Both the position numbers and the translations under genes were made by a program. This document shows positions 9,860-20,418 of a stretch of 64,000 nucleotides of DNA, piece after piece. How positions within the stretch are numbered: the stretch's first letter is position 1; every line of letters begins with the position of its first letter. Source of the stretch: Bacteroidales bacterium (GTDB lineage: Bacteria; Bacteroidota; Bacteroidia; Bacteroidales; UBA3824); the NCBI GenBank assembly GCA_016286055.1, contig JAEERW010000008.1:160604-224603 (forward strand), in the 5' to 3' direction. The notes below the pieces were generated by a model, which saw nothing but the letters and a program-made list of their open reading frames with translations, was not told the DNA's origin and did not search any database.

Positions 9860-9879
9860 TGTTATATTTATAATAAAAT

Positions 9880-9913
9880 GCTCTGATAATAATTTTGTTA
9901 TCAGAGCTTTTTT
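9880..9913 (+). terminator. Intrinsic terminator of ettA
   Basis: gctctgataa-taattttg-ttatcagagc followed by tttttt. Confidence 0.85.
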
Positions 9914-9920
9914 ATTATTA

Positions 9921-12900
9921 TTAGTTATCTATTTCAAGAACAAGGCGGAAACCGATGTTGTCTCCTTTTGTGTCTGGGAAAGCGCAATCACGATGGAATA
10001 CTCTGCATGTTTCATCTCTGCTTCTAAAACTACCACCTCTAAGTACTCTCGAATAACCTATTCTTGATCCTATAGGGTTGTCTTCTTCTTTGGTAGTGTA
10101 CAAACCAAAGAAATCTTCGCACCATTCTTTCACATTCCCCGACATATCATAAATTCCAAGCTCATTTGGTTTTAATATTGTGCTATGAACCGTATATGCT
10201 CCCATATTCCTATTTTTTTTCTTTGTGAAAGCAACCTCAAATAGCTCATCACTTCCGCTGTATTTGAAATTTTTTTTACTCATATTGCCGCCTCGAGCCG
10301 CAAATTCCCATTCTGCTTCAGTTGGTAATCTAAACGTAAGATTTTCATCCTGTTTTAGCTTATTAAGTTCTTGAATAAAATCTTGGACTTCTTTCCATGA
10401 TACATTCACTTTCGGGCAATCGGCATTAGCTTTTTCTTTAGCGTTTTTATTCTTAATACTATTCCATATTTTATTAGTAACAGGGGTTTCTCCGATATAA
10501 TAGTCGCTTACAGTGACTTTGTGGACTGGTTTTTCTGGATCTCTATCTTTATCCTCATTAGATCCCATATTAAAAGATCCCCCTTTTACATAAATCATCT
10601 TAAACGAAATATCGTTGATGTGAATCTCTTTTGTTTCGGTTGGGTCTTTCAACTGTTTTACCTTGCCATTATTTTGTATGATATAACGCTCGCCATTTGC
10701 ATTGAGAAGATATGTTTTGAATTTATCTCTATAATGTTTAAACTCAATTTTGTGGTACATCATTCCATTAATTTCACGACCGTTAATCTTGTTTTTGCCA
10801 TCAAACGCTTCTATGCTTTTTACTCTATTTCCTTCTTTATTTTTGGTGAGTATTATGTGGGTTACCCCATTTGAATCTTTTGTTTTATGATCTGTTTTAT
10901 CTAAGAATTCTGTCTGAACATAATGCTCGTTATCGTTGTCGAAATATGTATATTGTTCACCGGCGATGCCTTTTACGTTATCAATGCATGGTTCATTATC
11001 TACGTTATAGTATTTAGTTCTTTGGATTTTGCCATTTCCATTAGTATCGTAAATAAATTCTATTTTGTGGACTCCTGAATCGCTTTTTTCTTCGTCTTTA
11101 TTAGGGTAATGATATGTAGTTTGTTCTTTATTGCCATTTTCTTTATTATATTTGTAAAGGGATATACTTTTGATATCGTTGCTATGCTTGTTGTTTTGGT
11201 CGTCGTCGTAGTATTCAATTGAAATTTCATTGAATTGATATTTAGTTCCACCGAGAAACTTTCTGCTTTTTTCACGCCCAAGATGATCGTGCTCCGACTC
11301 ATACCCATAATTGCCGTCAACTATGTGGCGAATAATAAATTTAGATGTGTTATCAGATATTTCCTTGTCAAGGTCTTTCAAAAAAGACTTTATGTTATTA
11401 ATATTGAGAGCCTTTTCCCTTAAGTCGTTTACATCGTTGTGACTTATGTTTAAGAAATATGTTTTTTTAGGGTATTGATTATCAACAGTATCGTATTTGT
11501 AATAAATAGCGTTGTATCCCGATTCTGGTAATGTAACCCTGACATCGTTAGGCAGTTCCTGATTGGAATTATCAGGTGGCGTATAAAAATCTTTGTGTTC
11601 CTCTTTCCTTACGCAAAACTCTTTTAAAACAATTCTGTCGTAATCGTCAAAATAGAATCTTACCTTATGAAAACCTGTAGGAATCACCACCTTCTGAATG
11701 TTGCTATCGTGGTTTTCTCTGGTTTCAAACGAAATGTTATATATTTTGTCGTTTTCAATTTTAACTCTGAAGTGGGTGAAATATGCTGGCAAATCGTGAT
11801 AGTCTTCGTATTCGTCCATCATAGTTTGCATCTTAAATCTATCGTTGAGGGCTATTGTTACAATTGCCGAACTTGCTTTGTCGTAGTTTATTTTTTTAAG
11901 CTGGTGAATAGAATCTGTAGAAAAGTCAACAATGCTGTTTTTGTCGCCTTCCATAAAATTCATTGTGCTCATGATAGACGAATAGGTGTTCCACGGTCCA
12001 AAGATGCTGTCTACAAAGCAGTTGGTTTCTTTTAATCTGCCTTGCAGAGTAAAGTAAATGTTTGGCGTATAGCGTTTTGCGTTGTTCTGGCTGATTTTGT
12101 AGTTGTCCATATTCGTTTTGGCCATTTCGCACAAACGGTCGTGACGGAATTCGAGCATGTTTTCGTTGTTGCCCTTGTTGAGCTCGGTAAATAATTTGCA
12201 ATTCTTTATCACATTGCCAATTTCAGTTCTAACATTGTTTGCCGTGTGGCTTTTATTGCGGTAGACATATTTATTCAGCTCTTTCCTCAGAATGTTCTTT
12301 TCTTCAATGCCCTTGGATTGGTTATTAATTAGTTTGGGCTTTAGTATATCATGTTTGATTAAATGACACACAATGTCTTTTATTTGTATATCGAGGAATT
12401 GTATTGACCTATTTCCCAATTCGCACAATAGATTGTTTTGGTATACTTTCACCTTTGTGCATTTATTGTTGATAAGTTCGCAAAGCTTTTTGTCGTCGAT
12501 AATGTTGGTAGAAAACAGTATTTCTTCTTCCTTATTGAATTCGCCTTTACTTTTGATACTGTTTTTAGTTAGTGTGATAGTTTTGATAATATCGCAGGCA
12601 ATGTCTTTTTTGAGATTTGAAAGATAGTCATTATTGATGCCGCATATTTCATACAACCCATTTCTGGTGTCAATGATGCCTTTTTTTATGATGTTACAAA
12701 ACCACTCCTTTTTCTTTTTTAAATCTATATCTCCGTAAATAGCTTTGTCAAATAGCTTGCACAAATCGTCCAAATATGCCGATTGACGATATAATCCACT
12801 ATCTGACAATAGTTTGTCTTGTAATTCGTATATTGCTTGATTAAGATTTAGCAAAAGTTTTTCACGTACAGTGTCGTTGGCGCATTTGTTAATAGAATCT

Positions 12901-14525
12901 ATCAGGCTGAACCCTTTTAAATTGTTGATTAGAACTTGCCGTATGCTTTTAGTATTGCTGCCTCGGTCGTCTAATTCATTATCGTTGAGCTTGCCGTATG
13001 CGTAATTGCTGATATGGATGGCGGCTTGCTCTTGTTGAGCATCATTGCTGCTATTGAAAAGATTGTCAATGTGTTGTTTTAAATGATTTGTGTTAGATTT
13101 AGTATTATTAGTAATTAATTTCCCCAACTTTGTATTTTCCCATGTGTAGGTGTCTTTATTTACCGATGAACGAATATATTTGATTAAATCCGCGTATGAT
13201 TCCATTTTTTCGTGATATAAAACACTGTCGAGGTATAGACCTATGGATTCATCATCGTACGAACAATTATCATTACAGTTGTTTATGAATTTGTTGAAAA
13301 TTGTTTGCAGGTTTTCTTTGATGACATTTAATTCGGTGCGATTTTCGAGAATTTTTGCGATGTAGTCCTTTTTTTCTTTATTTCTTTTGTCGCTTCCTTG
13401 TTTTAAAGATTTGATTCTATCGTTATAAAAATCGGAAAGGATATTGGTAAATAGTTCGCTGATTTTATCATTTATATTTATGACTTCTTTTTGGAACAAA
13501 TCTGTTCTTATTTCTTCAGTTTCAGCGTTAATTGATTTATTATAACAATTTTCCCACACTTTATACAATACTACCGACAATGTCATAGTGTCAACTCGAT
13601 AGTCTGTTTTGTTGTCGGTATCATCAAAATCTTCTTTATTGTTTAGGATGGTTTTAATAAGTTCGTATGAATTCAATCCTTCGAATAGGCCTTTTGGTTT
13701 GAAATCGTCGCAAGCCATCATAATATCCCGTGCCTGGTCGTCGTCGAGGTTTTCTAAATAATAAATGTTGTGGGCAAGTACAGGATAATGTCCTGAATAT
13801 GACTCTATATCATATAGAAATTCTTTCCGAAGAGAGATGAGGAATCTGTGCAGAGTTTTTTCGTTTGAGTACTTGTCGTAGATTTCTTTTGTTGGGAATA
13901 ATTTTTCGCTGCCTTGACTTATCTCTTCAATGTATTCATAATAAGGAGAATATGAGTTGCTCATTATTTCATATATTTTGAATACTCTGTTTATCTCCTT
14001 GATGTTTAAATCTAATTGAAACAGCTCTTCGAATTGGTCAAGAACAATCAGAAAGTATAGTTTTAAGCCTCTCTTTTTAAAAATACGCAAGAAAAGTTTG
14101 TCCCACAACGAAATATTGTCGTATACTGCACACTCGTATTTGCTATCTATGTTGTTTTTTTTGATGCAAACTATGTCGTCTTCGTATTCTTTAAGTTTGT
14201 CGTTGATTCTTTCGTTGATTAATTCCCAAAACTTGCTGGCATAGTTGTTTCTGTTATCTAAGTTGAAAACCTCTTTTGGTGTGATTTTTATTGTGATAAA
14301 ATTGTACTCCTTTAGCCTCGGGGTGATGCCTGCATTAATCAATGAAGATTTGCCACATCCAGAATATCCGGCGAGTATGGTACTGGTTGTGTTGAGAATG
14401 ATATCGGTTAGTTCTGATGATTCCTCATTTCTGCCCCAAAAATACATCTCATCGTATTCGGTATATGTGTAAATTCCCATATAAGGATTTACTCTTTTGC
14501 TTTCTGAATTCTTAGTGGTTCCCAT
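9921..14525 (-). CDS. STAND-type NTPase (nSTAND1-like) with C-terminal formylglycine-generating-enzyme (FGE/SUMF1, C-type-lectin fold) domain
   Basis: N-term FWGRNEESSELTDIILNTTSTILAGYSGCGKSSLINAGITPRL (Walker A) and LYFLIVLDQFEELF (Walker B); C-term GGSFNMGSNEDKDRDPEKPVHKVTVSDYYIGETPVTNKIW...RLPTEAEWEFAARGG...GNVKEWCEDFFG...RVLRGGSFRSRDETCRVFHRD...NIGFRLVLE is FGE-like. Confidence 0.85.
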   Translation of the reverse strand: MGTTKNSESKRVNPYMGIYTYTEYDEMYFWGRNEESSELTDIILNTTSTILAGYSGCGKSSLINAGITPRLKEYNFITIKITPKEVFNLDNRNNYASKFWELINERINDKLKEYEDDIVCIKKNNIDSKYECAVYDNISLWDKLFLRIFKKRGLKLYFLIVLDQFEELFQLDLNIKEINRVFKIYEIMSNSYSPYYEYIEEISQGSEKLFPTKEIYDKYSNEKTLHRFLISLRKEFLYDIESYSGHYPVLAHNIYYLENLDDDQARDIMMACDDFKPKGLFEGLNSYELIKTILNNKEDFDDTDNKTDYRVDTMTLSVVLYKVWENCYNKSINAETEEIRTDLFQKEVININDKISELFTNILSDFYNDRIKSLKQGSDKRNKEKKDYIAKILENRTELNVIKENLQTIFNKFINNCNDNCSYDDESIGLYLDSVLYHEKMESYADLIKYIRSSVNKDTYTWENTKLGKLITNNTKSNTNHLKQHIDNLFNSSNDAQQEQAAIHISNYAYGKLNDNELDDRGSNTKSIRQVLINNLKGFSLIDSINKCANDTVREKLLLNLNQAIYELQDKLLSDSGLYRQSAYLDDLCKLFDKAIYGDIDLKKKKEWFCNIIKKGIIDTRNGLYEICGINNDYLSNLKKDIACDIIKTITLTKNSIKSKGEFNKEEEILFSTNIIDDKKLCELINNKCTKVKVYQNNLLCELGNRSIQFLDIQIKDIVCHLIKHDILKPKLINNQSKGIEEKNILRKELNKYVYRNKSHTANNVRTEIGNVIKNCKLFTELNKGNNENMLEFRHDRLCEMAKTNMDNYKISQNNAKRYTPNIYFTLQGRLKETNCFVDSIFGPWNTYSSIMSTMNFMEGDKNSIVDFSTDSIHQLKKINYDKASSAIVTIALNDRFKMQTMMDEYEDYHDLPAYFTHFRVKIENDKIYNISFETRENHDSNIQKVVIPTGFHKVRFYFDDYDRIVLKEFCVRKEEHKDFYTPPDNSNQELPNDVRVTLPESGYNAIYYKYDTVDNQYPKKTYFLNISHNDVNDLREKALNINNIKSFLKDLDKEISDNTSKFIIRHIVDGNYGYESEHDHLGREKSRKFLGGTKYQFNEISIEYYDDDQNNKHSNDIKSISLYKYNKENGNKEQTTYHYPNKDEEKSDSGVHKIEFIYDTNGNGKIQRTKYYNVDNEPCIDNVKGIAGEQYTYFDNDNEHYVQTEFLDKTDHKTKDSNGVTHIILTKNKEGNRVKSIEAFDGKNKINGREINGMMYHKIEFKHYRDKFKTYLLNANGERYIIQNNGKVKQLKDPTETKEIHINDISFKMIYVKGGSFNMGSNEDKDRDPEKPVHKVTVSDYYIGETPVTNKIWNSIKNKNAKEKANADCPKVNVSWKEVQDFIQELNKLKQDENLTFRLPTEAEWEFAARGGNMSKKNFKYSGSDELFEVAFTKKKNRNMGAYTVHSTILKPNELGIYDMSGNVKEWCEDFFGLYTTKEEDNPIGSRIGYSRVLRGGSFRSRDETCRVFHRDCAFPDTKGDNIGFRLVLEIDN

Positions 14526-14530
14526 AGGCT

Positions 14531-16921
14531 TTATAATTTAAGTACTTCCCGAATTTTGTTGTACAAACCGTATTCGTCTGTGTTGGTTATCTCAATAGTA
14601 TTGTTAGAATTGAAATTCAAGTCAAGGTTAAGTGGATCAAAGCATTTCTCTTTTGTGCCATTCATAACAGCAAGAGAAGGTGGTGTGTCTTGGTAATGTT
14701 GATAATTACTTGCTTTTTCGTGTTGCTCATAGCCATTATAATTATGAGCGGAGGTAGTGTCAAAATAGTATATCTTCAGTTTATAATCTTTATTATCAGT
14801 ATTCGTTTGTTTTTTGTGCCAGACAAAATTAAGCTTCAAATCATTCTTGGATAGTTTTTCTATTTTGTTCAAATAATTATCAACAAAATCTTTGAAACCC
14901 CTTTCATCTCCAGGTAAATATGATACAAAACAATTGTTGAAGTTTTCTTTCCATTCTTTGTGGTATTTGTCTTTTAAGAATGTAAATCTTTCCATAAAAG
15001 CATCGATACTCTCGTCTTTGAGGATAAGACCATCGTTTGAAGTAATCAACCTGTCTGTTTTGTGGTCGACAATTGTATTACTAATTAGTGCGGTTTCTCT
15101 ATTTTCGTTGTTGTTGGTTAGCCGTTCCCACATAAATCTCAGAGCCCAACTTGGGAAATTGGTACCGAGTGTTAATACAAATCTGTTGTTTAGCTGTCGA
15201 TTATTTTTATTGTTGTAGTTGTATAGCGCTATGATGCAGGTATTTATAAAATTTACAATTTTCTCTTCGGAGAATATCATGTTTTGCGCTCCTGAGTATC
15301 TGAGCAAATCTATAAAGATTAATTTGTCGCTGTTTTTATCTGTAATTTCTTTTTGCAACAATTTGATAAATGATCTATTATCTAACCCAGAGATATCCTT
15401 GGTGGAAGGAATTTCAAAATATTCATATAAAGAATGGTTTTTGACATTTTGTTCAAAACACTTTAAGAAGCAATTAAACATTTCATCTTCTTCCTTCTCA
15501 TTCTTTATATTGTTTTGTTCTTTTGTTTTTTTGAATTGTTCTTTTTTTTTGAATTGTTCTTTTGCGTTTTTAATAATAGTGCTCACTTCGTCTTTATGAG
15601 TATAGCGAGCGTATTCTTCGATCATATCCCAAATAATATTCTCGTCGCTGCCTGATATCTCACCATTTTTTAATTGATAATATGCGATTGTTTTGTTGGT
15701 ATATTTTTGTACAGTGCCAAACAAGCTCTTAGAATAACCTATAGAAACAATGATATCAAACAAATTGCTCTGAATAAGAGTGGCTAAATCAGAGCGACAA
15801 ATAGCAACTTCTTTTTCATAATTGATTGAACCATTTTGAATTTTGTCTTTTTCTAATTTGTTGATTAATTCTCTATCATTATAATGTATTGCGTACCATT
15901 CTCGAATGTTAGCTGGGGCTTCGTCGTTATTTTTTTGTATTGCCTCGGCAAACAATCTGCTATTGTAATAGTCTCCTAATCTGCCGTCTTTGGCAATTTG
16001 AATGTTGGCAATATTATTTTTGTTGTCGGCACATCTGTACTTCAATATATTATCACCTACCACCAATACTGATTTTTTCCAAATAGCCTTTGTAATCTTA
16101 TTGTCCAATTCCGGGTCATCATTACCAGTATTGTATCGGATTATGTATTTTTCCACAGTATTGGTGATGTTTGTGATAGTATTGTCGTCTGATGCTTTGA
16201 GGGTGCTATTATCCGTAACTTTTTGCAAAACATTATTTAATTCTTCCAAATAAAACCAATTGCTAAAGGCACGTTGTACTATGGCGGGATAGGCGTTATT
16301 TCTTTTGTTGTATCTATCAACACATTGTTTCATGTAGTCCGCCCATCTGTCGTATAATGAATTCTTGTATTCTGGATTGGTGAAATCCCATTCTTGAATT
16401 ATAATACCATATATTTTTTTAATGGGTGTCTCGTTGTCAAAGTTAACATAGATGATCTTTTTGCCAAGAGTGTGCTTATGAATAAGGGTCCATTCGTACA
16501 TGCAATGCGGTGATGTAAAATATTTATCGCTCAATATGACAATAATTATTTTAGCATCACCAATTTGTCTCTCAAACAGTTCAATATTATCACCTGCCTC
16601 TACTGCTGTTTGATATATTAAAACGTTGATATTTCTGGATGTAAGACTTTCGCACAAATCTTCCACATATTTGGTTTTATTCTTTTTGCCTTTTTTGGTT
16701 TTTGTAAAAGATTGTTTACTTTCATCTTCGCTCGCATAAGATATATATACAGGTATATCCTGATTGATGGTATTATCGGTGTCTTTGTTTTGATGGTTTG
16801 TGCCATCTTCATTTGAAACATTATCCGATATGGACTCAGGGTTATCTTCTGCACAGTTTCCTTCTTCCATGGTTTCTCTTTTTTCCATTCCAAATATAGT
16901 ACTTATCTGTGCTATCTCCAA
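14531..16921 (-). CDS. TIR-domain protein with SIR2-like region (predicted NADase-type conflict effector)
   Basis: TIR: VYISYASEDE...VEDLCESLTSRNINVLIYQTAVEAGDNIELFERQIGDAKIIIVILSDKYFTSPHCMYEW (candidate catalytic Glu in the CMYEW segment); SIR2-like fold segments KSVLVVGDNILKY, DLATLIQSNLFDIIVSIGYSKSLF, NRFVLTLGTNFPSWALRFMWERL. Start uncertain (alternate Met at 16888 or 16870). Confidence 0.75.
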   Translation of the reverse strand: MEIAQISTIFGMEKRETMEEGNCAEDNPESISDNVSNEDGTNHQNKDTDNTINQDIPVYISYASEDESKQSFTKTKKGKKNKTKYVEDLCESLTSRNINVLIYQTAVEAGDNIELFERQIGDAKIIIVILSDKYFTSPHCMYEWTLIHKHTLGKKIIYVNFDNETPIKKIYGIIIQEWDFTNPEYKNSLYDRWADYMKQCVDRYNKRNNAYPAIVQRAFSNWFYLEELNNVLQKVTDNSTLKASDDNTITNITNTVEKYIIRYNTGNDDPELDNKITKAIWKKSVLVVGDNILKYRCADNKNNIANIQIAKDGRLGDYYNSRLFAEAIQKNNDEAPANIREWYAIHYNDRELINKLEKDKIQNGSINYEKEVAICRSDLATLIQSNLFDIIVSIGYSKSLFGTVQKYTNKTIAYYQLKNGEISGSDENIIWDMIEEYARYTHKDEVSTIIKNAKEQFKKKEQFKKTKEQNNIKNEKEEDEMFNCFLKCFEQNVKNHSLYEYFEIPSTKDISGLDNRSFIKLLQKEITDKNSDKLIFIDLLRYSGAQNMIFSEEKIVNFINTCIIALYNYNNKNNRQLNNRFVLTLGTNFPSWALRFMWERLTNNNENRETALISNTIVDHKTDRLITSNDGLILKDESIDAFMERFTFLKDKYHKEWKENFNNCFVSYLPGDERGFKDFVDNYLNKIEKLSKNDLKLNFVWHKKQTNTDNKDYKLKIYYFDTTSAHNYNGYEQHEKASNYQHYQDTPPSLAVMNGTKEKCFDPLNLDLNFNSNNTIEITNTDEYGLYNKIREVLKL
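15527..15562 (-). repeat. Perfect 2 x 18-bp tandem repeat inside the TIR/SIR2-like gene
   Basis: ttttttgaattgttcttt repeated back to back (encodes KEQFKK twice), generating an A9 coding-strand homopolymer at the junction. Confidence 0.95.
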
Positions 16922-16948
16922 ATATTTTTTGCTTTTTTTTACAATAAT

Positions 16949-16978
16949 TTAGGGGAGACTTATATAAGTCCCCCCTAA
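16949..16978 (-). terminator. Strong stem-loop between propeller gene and TIR gene, probable terminator/insulator
   Basis: ttagggg-a-gactta-ta-taagtc-c-cccctaa, 13 bp paired with one A/C mismatch. Confidence 0.6.
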
Positions 16979-17018
16979 TTAACTAATGCTCAGTTGGTAT
17001 TGTGGTTAGTGGCTTAAA

Positions 17019-18143
17019 TCAAAAATCCTTAAACTTAAACATCACTATTATGGGATTGTTGTCGGGATTGTATGATGAGAGAATCTCCTTGTCGTGGTTG
17101 CTCAGCAGCGGAGTTATCTCTTCTTGATACTTTTCGTAATTATTTTCATTGATAGTCAATGAAAAATAATCATCTAAAACCTCCTCCGTTGCTGCAAAAA
17201 ACGGTTCGGAGGTTTTATTTTTGTTTGTTATAACCAAATAATTGCCTGATTTTTTGGAGAATACAACCTTTTTGTATTCTTTTTGATACAGATTAGACAT
17301 TTTGTAGATGGCTGTTCCACTGTTTTCTAAAAACAAATCTGCATAGTAGCCATCAGTTTTGTCCATATTCATCAAATCTCCTTTAAGCATCGAATAATTA
17401 AGCCGTTTGTCGTATTTAAAATAGATAGCCGGAGTGAGTTTTGAATTTTGATAATAATATATGGTGTCGCGCATAACGGCAATATGATTGTCGGCTAAAA
17501 CGATTTCGAGAGGATTAATTAAACATGGCCCATCGATCCGCTCATACGGAAATTGCTTTTGCAAAATATTGAAATTTAAATCGGTAACAAAAAATCTTGT
17601 TTTTATGCTATCGTTCAACATATTATCAAAGGTATAGAACACATATTCGTCACCAAGTCTTAAACAATTGCCATAATTGAAAGGTATGTTGACCTTATCG
17701 ATAAAATTGCCGTCGCAATCAAAAAACGACCAAAAATGTCCATTTGAAACTATAAGATTTTGACGTTTATAGTCAAAAAACATATCTGTATATTGATCAA
17801 TTTCTCCCGGACCTTGACCCTGATGGAGTTCTTTTACAAAATTGCCATTGGCGTCGTAAATTTTTACTGGTTCGCTTGTAATGAATGGAGCATCCGCCAC
17901 AAATATTCTTTCACCCGCTTTTATGGTGTAAAATACTTGTTTGATTAACGCCGTATCATTCTGTAAAGGAATGAGATACATAGTGTCGATAAGTTGGTCG
18001 AAGGGCGGCAACTCTTTGTTAGGCGGATTATCTACATCGATTATCACCATTCCGTCGGAGGATTGTGCTTTTTCGCCGCCGTTGCAAGCCGAAAATGCCA
18101 TTGCTGCTGAGATGGCGGCTGTAAATAATAATGTGTGTCTCAT
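17019..18143 (-). CDS. 6-bladed beta-propeller lipoprotein
   Basis: Lipoprotein signal (AAISAAMAFSACNGG); KIYDANGNFVKELHQGQGPGEIDQYTDMFFDYKRQNLIVSNG and FDCDGNFIDKVNIPF typical of Bacteroidetes 6-bladed beta-propeller family. Confidence 0.75.
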   Translation of the reverse strand: MRHTLLFTAAISAAMAFSACNGGEKAQSSDGMVIIDVDNPPNKELPPFDQLIDTMYLIPLQNDTALIKQVFYTIKAGERIFVADAPFITSEPVKIYDANGNFVKELHQGQGPGEIDQYTDMFFDYKRQNLIVSNGHFWSFFDCDGNFIDKVNIPFNYGNCLRLGDEYVFYTFDNMLNDSIKTRFFVTDLNFNILQKQFPYERIDGPCLINPLEIVLADNHIAVMRDTIYYYQNSKLTPAIYFKYDKRLNYSMLKGDLMNMDKTDGYYADLFLENSGTAIYKMSNLYQKEYKKVVFSKKSGNYLVITNKNKTSEPFFAATEEVLDDYFSLTINENNYEKYQEEITPLLSNHDKEILSSYNPDNNPIIVMFKFKDF

Positions 18144-19537: not shown

Positions 19538-20416
19538 ATGAAATCATACAAGTACATCAAAAGTAATGCCTTTACTGCGGGAGATTCGCTTGGAAACCCT
19601 GCCGCATGCGTTTTTACCAACGGAAACCCTCTCACACCCGACCAAATGCAGTCGGTGGCAAAAGAGCATAAGGGTTTTGTAATGGAAATGGTTTTTGTTG
19701 ATAATTCTTCGGTTGCCGACTGCAAACTTACATATTATTCGTCGGAATGTGAGGTGGAATTTTGCGGACACGGAACTATTGCCACCATGTATCCTATGGT
19801 AAAAGACAACCCCGAATTGCGTGCAAAACCTGTTATCAAAGCCGAAACCAACCGTAAAGGAATCATAGAAGTTTTTAACGCTATCGACACCGAAGATTCT
19901 GTTTATATTACGGCTCCTGACCCGATAGAAATTTCTATGAATATTACCAACGAAAATATCGAAAAAGCATTGAATTTGCCAGCCGGTGCAATATCAAAAA
20001 AATTGCCCGTTCGCATCATTGATGCTGGTTTGCGAACTCTCATAGTGCCTATTGAAGATTTTGAAACCGAAATTTCTGTTTACCCTGACGAAATGTCTCT
20101 TAAAGAGTTTAGTTTAAAAAATGGCTACGATATAACACTCTGTTTTTCAATGAATACAGCATCGCCCGACAACTTTGCCCACACTCGTGTTTTTGCACCC
20201 AAATTCGGATACTTAGAAGACCCCGCAACAGGGTCGGGCAACAGTGCTTTTGCAAATTATCTTTTGAGTGAAAAACTTTGGGACGGACACCCAATCACCA
20301 TCGAACAAGGTGGCAACGACCGTATTTTCAACGCTGTAAAACTCAAATACGTAGACAACAAAGTCCTTTTTGGTGGAAAATCTACTGTAAGAATTGTTGG
20401 AGATTATTTGATTTGA
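19538..20416 (+). CDS. PhzF-family isomerase/epimerase
   Basis: KSNAFTAGDSLGNPAACVF, SECEVEFCGHGTIATMY, FAPKFGYLEDPATGSGNSAFANYL. Confidence 0.9.
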   Translation: MKSYKYIKSNAFTAGDSLGNPAACVFTNGNPLTPDQMQSVAKEHKGFVMEMVFVDNSSVADCKLTYYSSECEVEFCGHGTIATMYPMVKDNPELRAKPVIKAETNRKGIIEVFNAIDTEDSVYITAPDPIEISMNITNENIEKALNLPAGAISKKLPVRIIDAGLRTLIVPIEDFETEISVYPDEMSLKEFSLKNGYDITLCFSMNTASPDNFAHTRVFAPKFGYLEDPATGSGNSAFANYLLSEKLWDGHPITIEQGGNDRIFNAVKLKYVDNKVLFGGKSTVRIVGDYLI

Positions 20417-20418
20417 TA

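Follow-up and report, generated by a model that had tools for sequence, protein, structure and literature searches.

A candidate immune-receptor operon from a rumen-type Bacteroidales bacterium that couples an nSTAND1-FGE protein to a TIR domain and a degenerate sirtuin

The stretch of Bacteroidales DNA analyzed here (64,000 nucleotides, hereafter the window) carries next to ettA a pair of minus-strand genes with TIR, SIR2-like, STAND NTPase and FGE segments, which raises the question of what kind of system the pair encodes and how it came to occupy this site. Judged by its domains, the operon resembles an immune receptor composed of a STAND switch, a lectin-like tip, a TIR domain and a degenerate sirtuin, and it is probably an NLR-like anti-phage system of the abortive-infection kind in which the nSTAND1-FGE protein would serve as sensor and switch and the TIR partner as effector. 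A sequence-only reading had described two minus-strand open reading frames (ORFs) 5 nt apart within an AT-rich island, and both observations hold: the ORF listing and the sequence place the genes in one operon with AGCCT between the ORFs, and the GC content of the operon region is 0.32-0.37 compared with 0.42-0.48 nearby. The TIR gene lies upstream (ATG at 16870, stop at 14531) and the STAND gene downstream, with the following layout.

9921-14525, minus strand: nSTAND1, middle region and FGE protein, 1534 aa (ORF and Pfam)
14531-16870, minus strand: TIR and SIR2-like protein, 779 aa if started at the preferred ATG (ORF; start chosen by comparison with the relative L003)
16891-16922, minus strand: Bacteroidota-type promoter match TTTG-N20-TATATTTG, with its two boxes retained in L003
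9880-9907, no strand assigned: T-tailed hairpin usable in both directions, between the convergent ettA and STAND genes
9866-17017, no strand assigned: inserted segment with the operon, about 7.15 kb, between ettA and a downstream lipoprotein-like gene (empty site in genome G003)

The start of the TIR gene had been placed at TTG 16921. ATG 16870 is probably the true start, since a 1-bp difference in L003 puts the earlier ATG out of frame there and leaves only ATG 16870 in frame, and since the conserved promoter match at 16922-16891 overlaps TTG 16921 and extends downstream of it. The promoter pattern has seven matches in the window compared with 1.67 expected. The hairpin at 9880-9907 had been taken for an ettA terminator after which the island begins; it sits within the inserted segment and is missing at the empty site.

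Four features were located in the upstream protein.

16379-16675, minus strand: TIR domain (TIR_2, PF13676, E = 1.4e-11)
16493-16495, minus strand: candidate catalytic Glu of the TIR domain (SPHCMYEW), shared by 24 of 24 family TIR domains in the alignment
15626-16090, minus strand: SIR2-like domain, N-terminal half, weak match (sub-threshold alignment, low-confidence model)
15005-15298, minus strand: SIR2-like domain, C-terminal half, significant match (family profile, E = 2.7e-9)

The TIR domain with its candidate catalytic Glu, proposed from the letters of the sequence, was thus recovered by Pfam and by the family alignment, and the combination of a PF13676 domain and a predicted catalytic Glu is what is expected of a TIR NADase at the sequence level. 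The region after the TIR domain gave no convincing Pfam match. A SIR2-like family profile that was built without the window protein matched aa 531-628 of the 785-aa frame, and a search of the bacterium's own genome with the family alignment recovered the window protein (E = 1.1e-6). These matches, which cover about 100 residues, point with moderate confidence to a real but divergent SIR2-like fold. The AF2 model of the SIR2-like region is poor (pLDDT 47), and a Foldseek search with this low-confidence model returned no significant fold match, KomC/HAM-SIR2 appearing as weak long alignments. None of the SIR2 motifs GAGxS, TTNxD and HG/NG is recognizable in the window protein, the HG columns aligning to DLL, so that the SIR2-like part suggested earlier stands in a divergent and degenerate form. 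The TIR domain is N-terminal in the window protein versus C-terminal in most of its relatives.

The downstream protein is divided as follows.

13719-14486, minus strand: nSTAND1 P-loop NTPase domain, aa 14-269 (PF20703, E = 5.6e-20)
14343-14369, minus strand: Walker A motif GYSGCGKSS, aa 53-61 (sequence)
14019-14051, minus strand: Walker B motif LIVLDQFEELF, aa 159-169 (sequence)
10626-12065, minus strand: orphan middle region, aa 821-1300 (order-wide homolog search)
9924-10625, minus strand: FGE domain of C-type-lectin fold, aa 1301-1534, a candidate sensor that would bind the ligand (PF03781; starts exactly at the divergence breakpoint)
10167-10289, minus strand: most variable FGE stretch, aa 1413-1453, predominantly coil, where the two alleles are 39% identical (allele comparison and AF2 model)

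The STAND NTPase with its two motifs and the C-terminal FGE/C-type-lectin-like domain had both been named beforehand and were both found, the FGE-sulfatase match (PF03781) extending over aa 1309-1529 with E = 2.6e-44. AlphaFold modeling, one of the checks proposed, was informative for this domain (pLDDT 81) and poor for the SIR2-like region. The best fold match of the FGE domain is TvpA (2Y3C, TM 0.84), a protein of C-type-lectin fold that is the target of a diversity-generating retroelement (DGR). The cysteine pair that follows RGGS in FGE enzymes is incomplete: RGGSFRSRDETC keeps the second Cys alone and the first is missing. A PHROGs search matched the FGE domain and nothing else. No convincing homolog of the middle region was found among 374 genomes of the order; a single weak match in G130 (E = 7e-4) displayed no detectable similarity on re-test and sits among unrelated large proteins.

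Whether the two genes belong together was addressed through their relatives. An nSTAND1 search of the order gave matches in 19 out of 393 genomes (own genome included), and the neighbors of 19 distant nSTAND1 loci were inspected. Directly upstream of most of these homologs lies a protein of about 430-485 aa with Pfam SIR2_2 and TIR_2 matches, a SIR2-like gene being present at this position in 15 of the 19 loci. Starting from the other partner, a SIR2-like profile search of the order yielded 26 further, independently found loci, 21 of them with nSTAND1 immediately downstream; two of the remaining five lie near contig ends. Outside the order the same arrangement was found at nine out of ten SIR2-like loci and the tenth ends at a contig end. 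All of these co-occurrence counts refer to sampled genomes, many of them fragmented. Failure of the two protein types to co-occur had been named in advance as an outcome that would speak against a common system; they are neighbors in most genomes that contain them. In the window pair the SIR2-like gene directly precedes the nSTAND1 gene on the same strand, which is the defining arrangement, and its SIR2-like member is divergent. By this comparison the pair belongs to a module conserved across the Bacteroidota that places nSTAND1 beside a SIR2-like protein of degenerate type, frequently carrying a TIR domain. Across the phylum, the SIR2-like domain accompanies nSTAND1 more constantly than any other partner does, the TIR domain is fused to it in many but not all members, and the C-terminal tails of the nSTAND1 partners are interchangeable (WD40, LRR, TPR, Sel1 or FGE). 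At one locus (L151) the TIR, SIR2-like and nSTAND1-FGE parts of the window operon occur unfused, as three consecutive genes. Many uncharacterized Bacteroidota operons would accordingly fall into a single module whose pseudo-sirtuin/STAND core is constant and whose sensors can be interchanged.

Some further arrangements of these parts were observed. In G261 (L063:1-9556) a SIR2-like-TIR/nSTAND1 pair is followed by a 1115-aa protein without a Pfam match and a TIR-FGE fusion (411 aa). In G014, which belongs to the same genus as the window, a TIR gene with 46% identity to that of the window is followed by a 679-aa protein ending in FGE (L082:5968-15811) and a 1227-aa TIR...FGE fusion lies nearby, TIR and FGE thus recurring together in the genus. 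In G015 of the same genus, near ettA, a 290-aa gene of unknown type overlaps a gene for a 1081-aa nSTAND1 protein (L106:6814-10928).

Against the PDB, the best matches of the SIR2-like family are ThsA and KomC (E = 7e-15 to 2e-12). In place of the catalytic His of the SIR2 HG motif the family mostly carries Phe or Leu (2 of 52 members keep His); the Asn of the TTN motif is mostly replaced by Ser or Thr and is kept by 8 of the 52. In PaAvs5 the SIR2-dependent defense is reported to need either HG or NG (PMC12931631), and as both residues are mostly lost in the family, the majority of its members are predicted to be catalytically dead.

A conflict system in which these parts cooperate differently has to be considered, given that TIR domains can be scaffolds or signal makers instead of NAD depleters. 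The TIR domain would then produce a signal or act as a scaffold (compare Thoeris ThsB and signaling TIRs), the SIR2-like domain would bind an NAD-derived ligand and the killing would be done by something else. The relationship of the family to the nucleotide-binding ThsA and KomC fits such a role, as does the structural Gly of the nucleotide-binding loop, which is kept in 52 out of 52 members; against it, the neighborhoods inspected show no conserved third effector gene beside the module. This arrangement is considered unlikely, though the strongest of the alternatives. The preferred reading is one in which the TIR domain is the probable effector and the pseudo-sirtuin the probable adaptor.

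Of the kinds of system described so far, STAND-FGS conflict systems come closest, and Avs5 and Thoeris are functional neighbors. Kaur et al. 2021 (PMC8195603) predicted STAND-FGS systems, with nSTAND1 and TIR versions among them, as STAND NTPases (nSTAND1 among the clades) with a C-terminal FGS/FGE domain, the proposed invader sensor, and effectors that include TIR. The window operon likewise has PF20703 and PF03781 in one protein and an effector (TIR) gene 5 nt upstream of the STAND gene. In STAND-FGS systems coupling is by N-terminal fusions or by shared effector-associated domains (bDLD3, EADs), often with a DGR, a shared effector-associated or death-like domain on both proteins being common but not universal (PMC8195603). 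The operon described here has instead a separate TIR-pseudo-SIR2 protein, and neither of its proteins displays such a domain (Pfam, E<=1). It is set apart by its linkage to a pseudo-sirtuin, by a two-gene layout in which no shared adaptor domain was detected, and by the lack of a DGR.

Avs/AVAST systems share with the operon a STAND switch, a NAD-related effector fold and a variable C-terminal sensor, Avs5 (SIR2-nSTAND3; PMC12931631) in particular. They consist of a single STAND protein with an N-terminal effector and a repeat-type sensor, and Avs5 combines nSTAND3 with a catalytic SIR2, whereas the operon consists of two proteins with nSTAND1, an FGE tail, a degenerate SIR2-like domain and a TIR domain that retains its Glu. 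Thoeris (ThsA with catalytic SIR2 and SLOG, ThsB with TIR) also combines SIR2-type and TIR domains, and the family profile matches ThsA with E = 1.8e-12; in contrast to Thoeris, no SLOG was found by Pfam, the SIR2 catalytic His is lost in the family and the partner is a STAND protein. The PADLOC check that had been proposed gave no support for any known system, as no model of the 2023 release, Avs/AVAST and Thoeris included, matched the STAND-FGE or the TIR protein; nor were known defense genes shown to lie beside the operon. KomC/HAM-SIR2 and the FAM118 SIR2 family are related to the SIR2-like domain at the level of sequence profiles; most members of the SIR2-like family have Phe or Leu at the position of His146 of KomC, which is itself a SIR2 NADase. 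Lectin-fold diversified STAND sensors are discussed in PMC10907252, and the nSTAND1/NACHT-CLec sensors described there resemble the window protein in carrying a lectin-fold sensor on a STAND protein but are diversified by DGRs, variation here being by divergence or recombination. The earlier remark that the pairing is not a named system can be kept in part: STAND-FGS systems with nSTAND1 and TIR had been predicted (PMC8195603), and no description of the SIR2-like/TIR and nSTAND1 module was found in the open literature (most subscription papers and bioRxiv lay outside the search), where the module is apparently unnamed.

The conflict-operon reading is supported by the domain matches, the SIR2-like/nSTAND1 linkage, the unfused parts at L151 and the variable tails on a constant STAND core. 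We infer a path of ligand binding, oligomerization, docking through the SIR2-like domain, NADase activity and defense. The C-terminal FGE domain, with its lectin-like fold, would bind an invader-derived ligand and ligand binding would lead to ATP-driven oligomerization of the STAND domain, two steps suggested by what is known of these families; the pseudo-sirtuin domain would then dock on the activated STAND protein and bring the TIR domains together, and the assembled TIR domains would cleave NAD+, two steps suggested by the genomic linkage. The mechanism predicts that the TIR Glu is essential, that the SIR2-like pocket is non-catalytic and that an FGE swap alone should alter specificity. That a STAND-FGE sensor controls a TIR partner was the proposal of the sequence-only reading, and with the partner genes co-occurring it remains the best one; the degenerate SIR2 domain, its constancy as a partner and the separate history of the FGE domain had been missed. 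More tentatively, and at somewhat less than even chances, the module could represent an unnamed phylum-wide class of NLR-like immunity in which a dead sirtuin domain would take the role that death-fold adaptors have elsewhere and connect an nSTAND1 sensor with a TIR effector, the tip of the sensor changing by exchange or diversification separately from the core.

The position of the operon is variable within the genus. In G003 (L104, 97% identical over the flanks) window position 9865 is joined directly to 17018, at a point 186 bp from a contig end of this draft genome, and the operon is also missing at the ettA site in G011 and G013. The full TIR-SIR2-like gene was found in 2 out of 18 genomes of the genus and the exact gene pair in two genomes only. 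The possibility that the STAND-based system serves regulation or self-recognition (kin discrimination, stress signaling) instead of phage defense has to be weighed against this pattern. STAND proteins also serve as regulators and FGE/C-type-lectin folds bind varied ligands, which would suit such a role, but the patchy distribution, the insertion at a single site and the conserved Glu of an effector-type TIR domain argue against it and make it improbable. Carriage of the preferred conflict operon by a mobile element was considered and rejected, the TIR protein being absent from plasmid and phage collections and no relative being confirmed in viral contigs.

The second carrier (L003) is G012, a yak-rumen Bacteroidales metagenome-assembled genome, and its comparison with the window reveals a mosaic. 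Of the flanking genes, ettA is at dS 0.49, metF at 0.68 and the 924-aa gene beyond at 0.52. The STAND core is about 99% identical (dS 0.027, dN 0.003), and the FGE domain is at the divergence level of the flanking genes (dS 0.563, dN 0.171). The breakpoint lies at residue 1301, with zero mismatches in the preceding 180-210 bp or so and about 10 per 30 bp beyond (synonymous differences, core versus FGE, p about 8e-32, Fisher). A second breakpoint upstream, at about 16726-16766, lies just before the TIR domain, so that the two alleles are near-identical apart from the FGE domain and a short N-terminal extension of the TIR protein. By this comparison of two alleles, the FGE domain and the operon core have separate histories. 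In one simple reading, the operon has long occupied the site and its core was recently homogenized between the two species by homologous recombination, each keeping its own FGE domain; the data are also compatible with replacement of the FGE domain from an unseen relative, and separate histories hold under both readings. No donor of the divergent FGE domain was seen elsewhere in the genus, where the next best FGE is <=50% identical. An assembly artifact of metagenome bins as the source of the mosaic is very unlikely: the relative is a metagenome-assembled genome and the empty-site join is near a contig end, but the reading frames are intact, the lengths of the FGE indels are divisible by three, and either flank has the ordinary divergence between species. 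Sporadic presence, the empty site, the breakpoint at the FGE boundary and the retention of the TIR Glu with loss of the SIR2 His add to the case for a conflict operon, and the two natural alleles would be close to a ready-made experiment on FGE recognition in STAND-lectin systems.

Allele differences within the FGE domain modestly favor coil (48/135 versus 23/104, p = 0.03), and no signal of positive selection was obtained for the operon, dN/dS being <1 wherever estimable from the two alleles. FGE paralogs of the genus differ strongly at the positions that directly follow RGGSW and surround a conserved C-R-V core, a pattern resembling DGR variable repeats. Generation of the FGE divergence by a DGR, for which this paralog variation, the closest fold (the DGR target TvpA) and the frequency of STAND-FGS proteins among DGR targets (PMC10907252, PMC8195603) might speak, is disfavored and highly improbable, as no template repeat for the last 170 bp of the STAND gene exists anywhere in the own genome, no reverse transcriptase was found near the operon, the two encoded elsewhere lack a DGR-type motif by eye, and the differences are domain-wide with ordinary dS and not limited to the 3' end.

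These two reverse transcriptase copies of the own genome (L001:1306-2514 and L002:1126-1749, one partial in its locus) are each convergent with a similar ORF of 366-367 aa. Beyond the operon, a fast-evolving gene of about 374 aa (window 17019-18143, dS 0.84 and dN 0.19 versus L003) is split into two ORFs in G003 and missing from G011 and G013, which marks the ettA flank as a variable site. Further along, G003 carries extra genes at L104:3567-4441, including a 173-aa acetyltransferase-like ORF, that have no counterpart at window 20416-20418.
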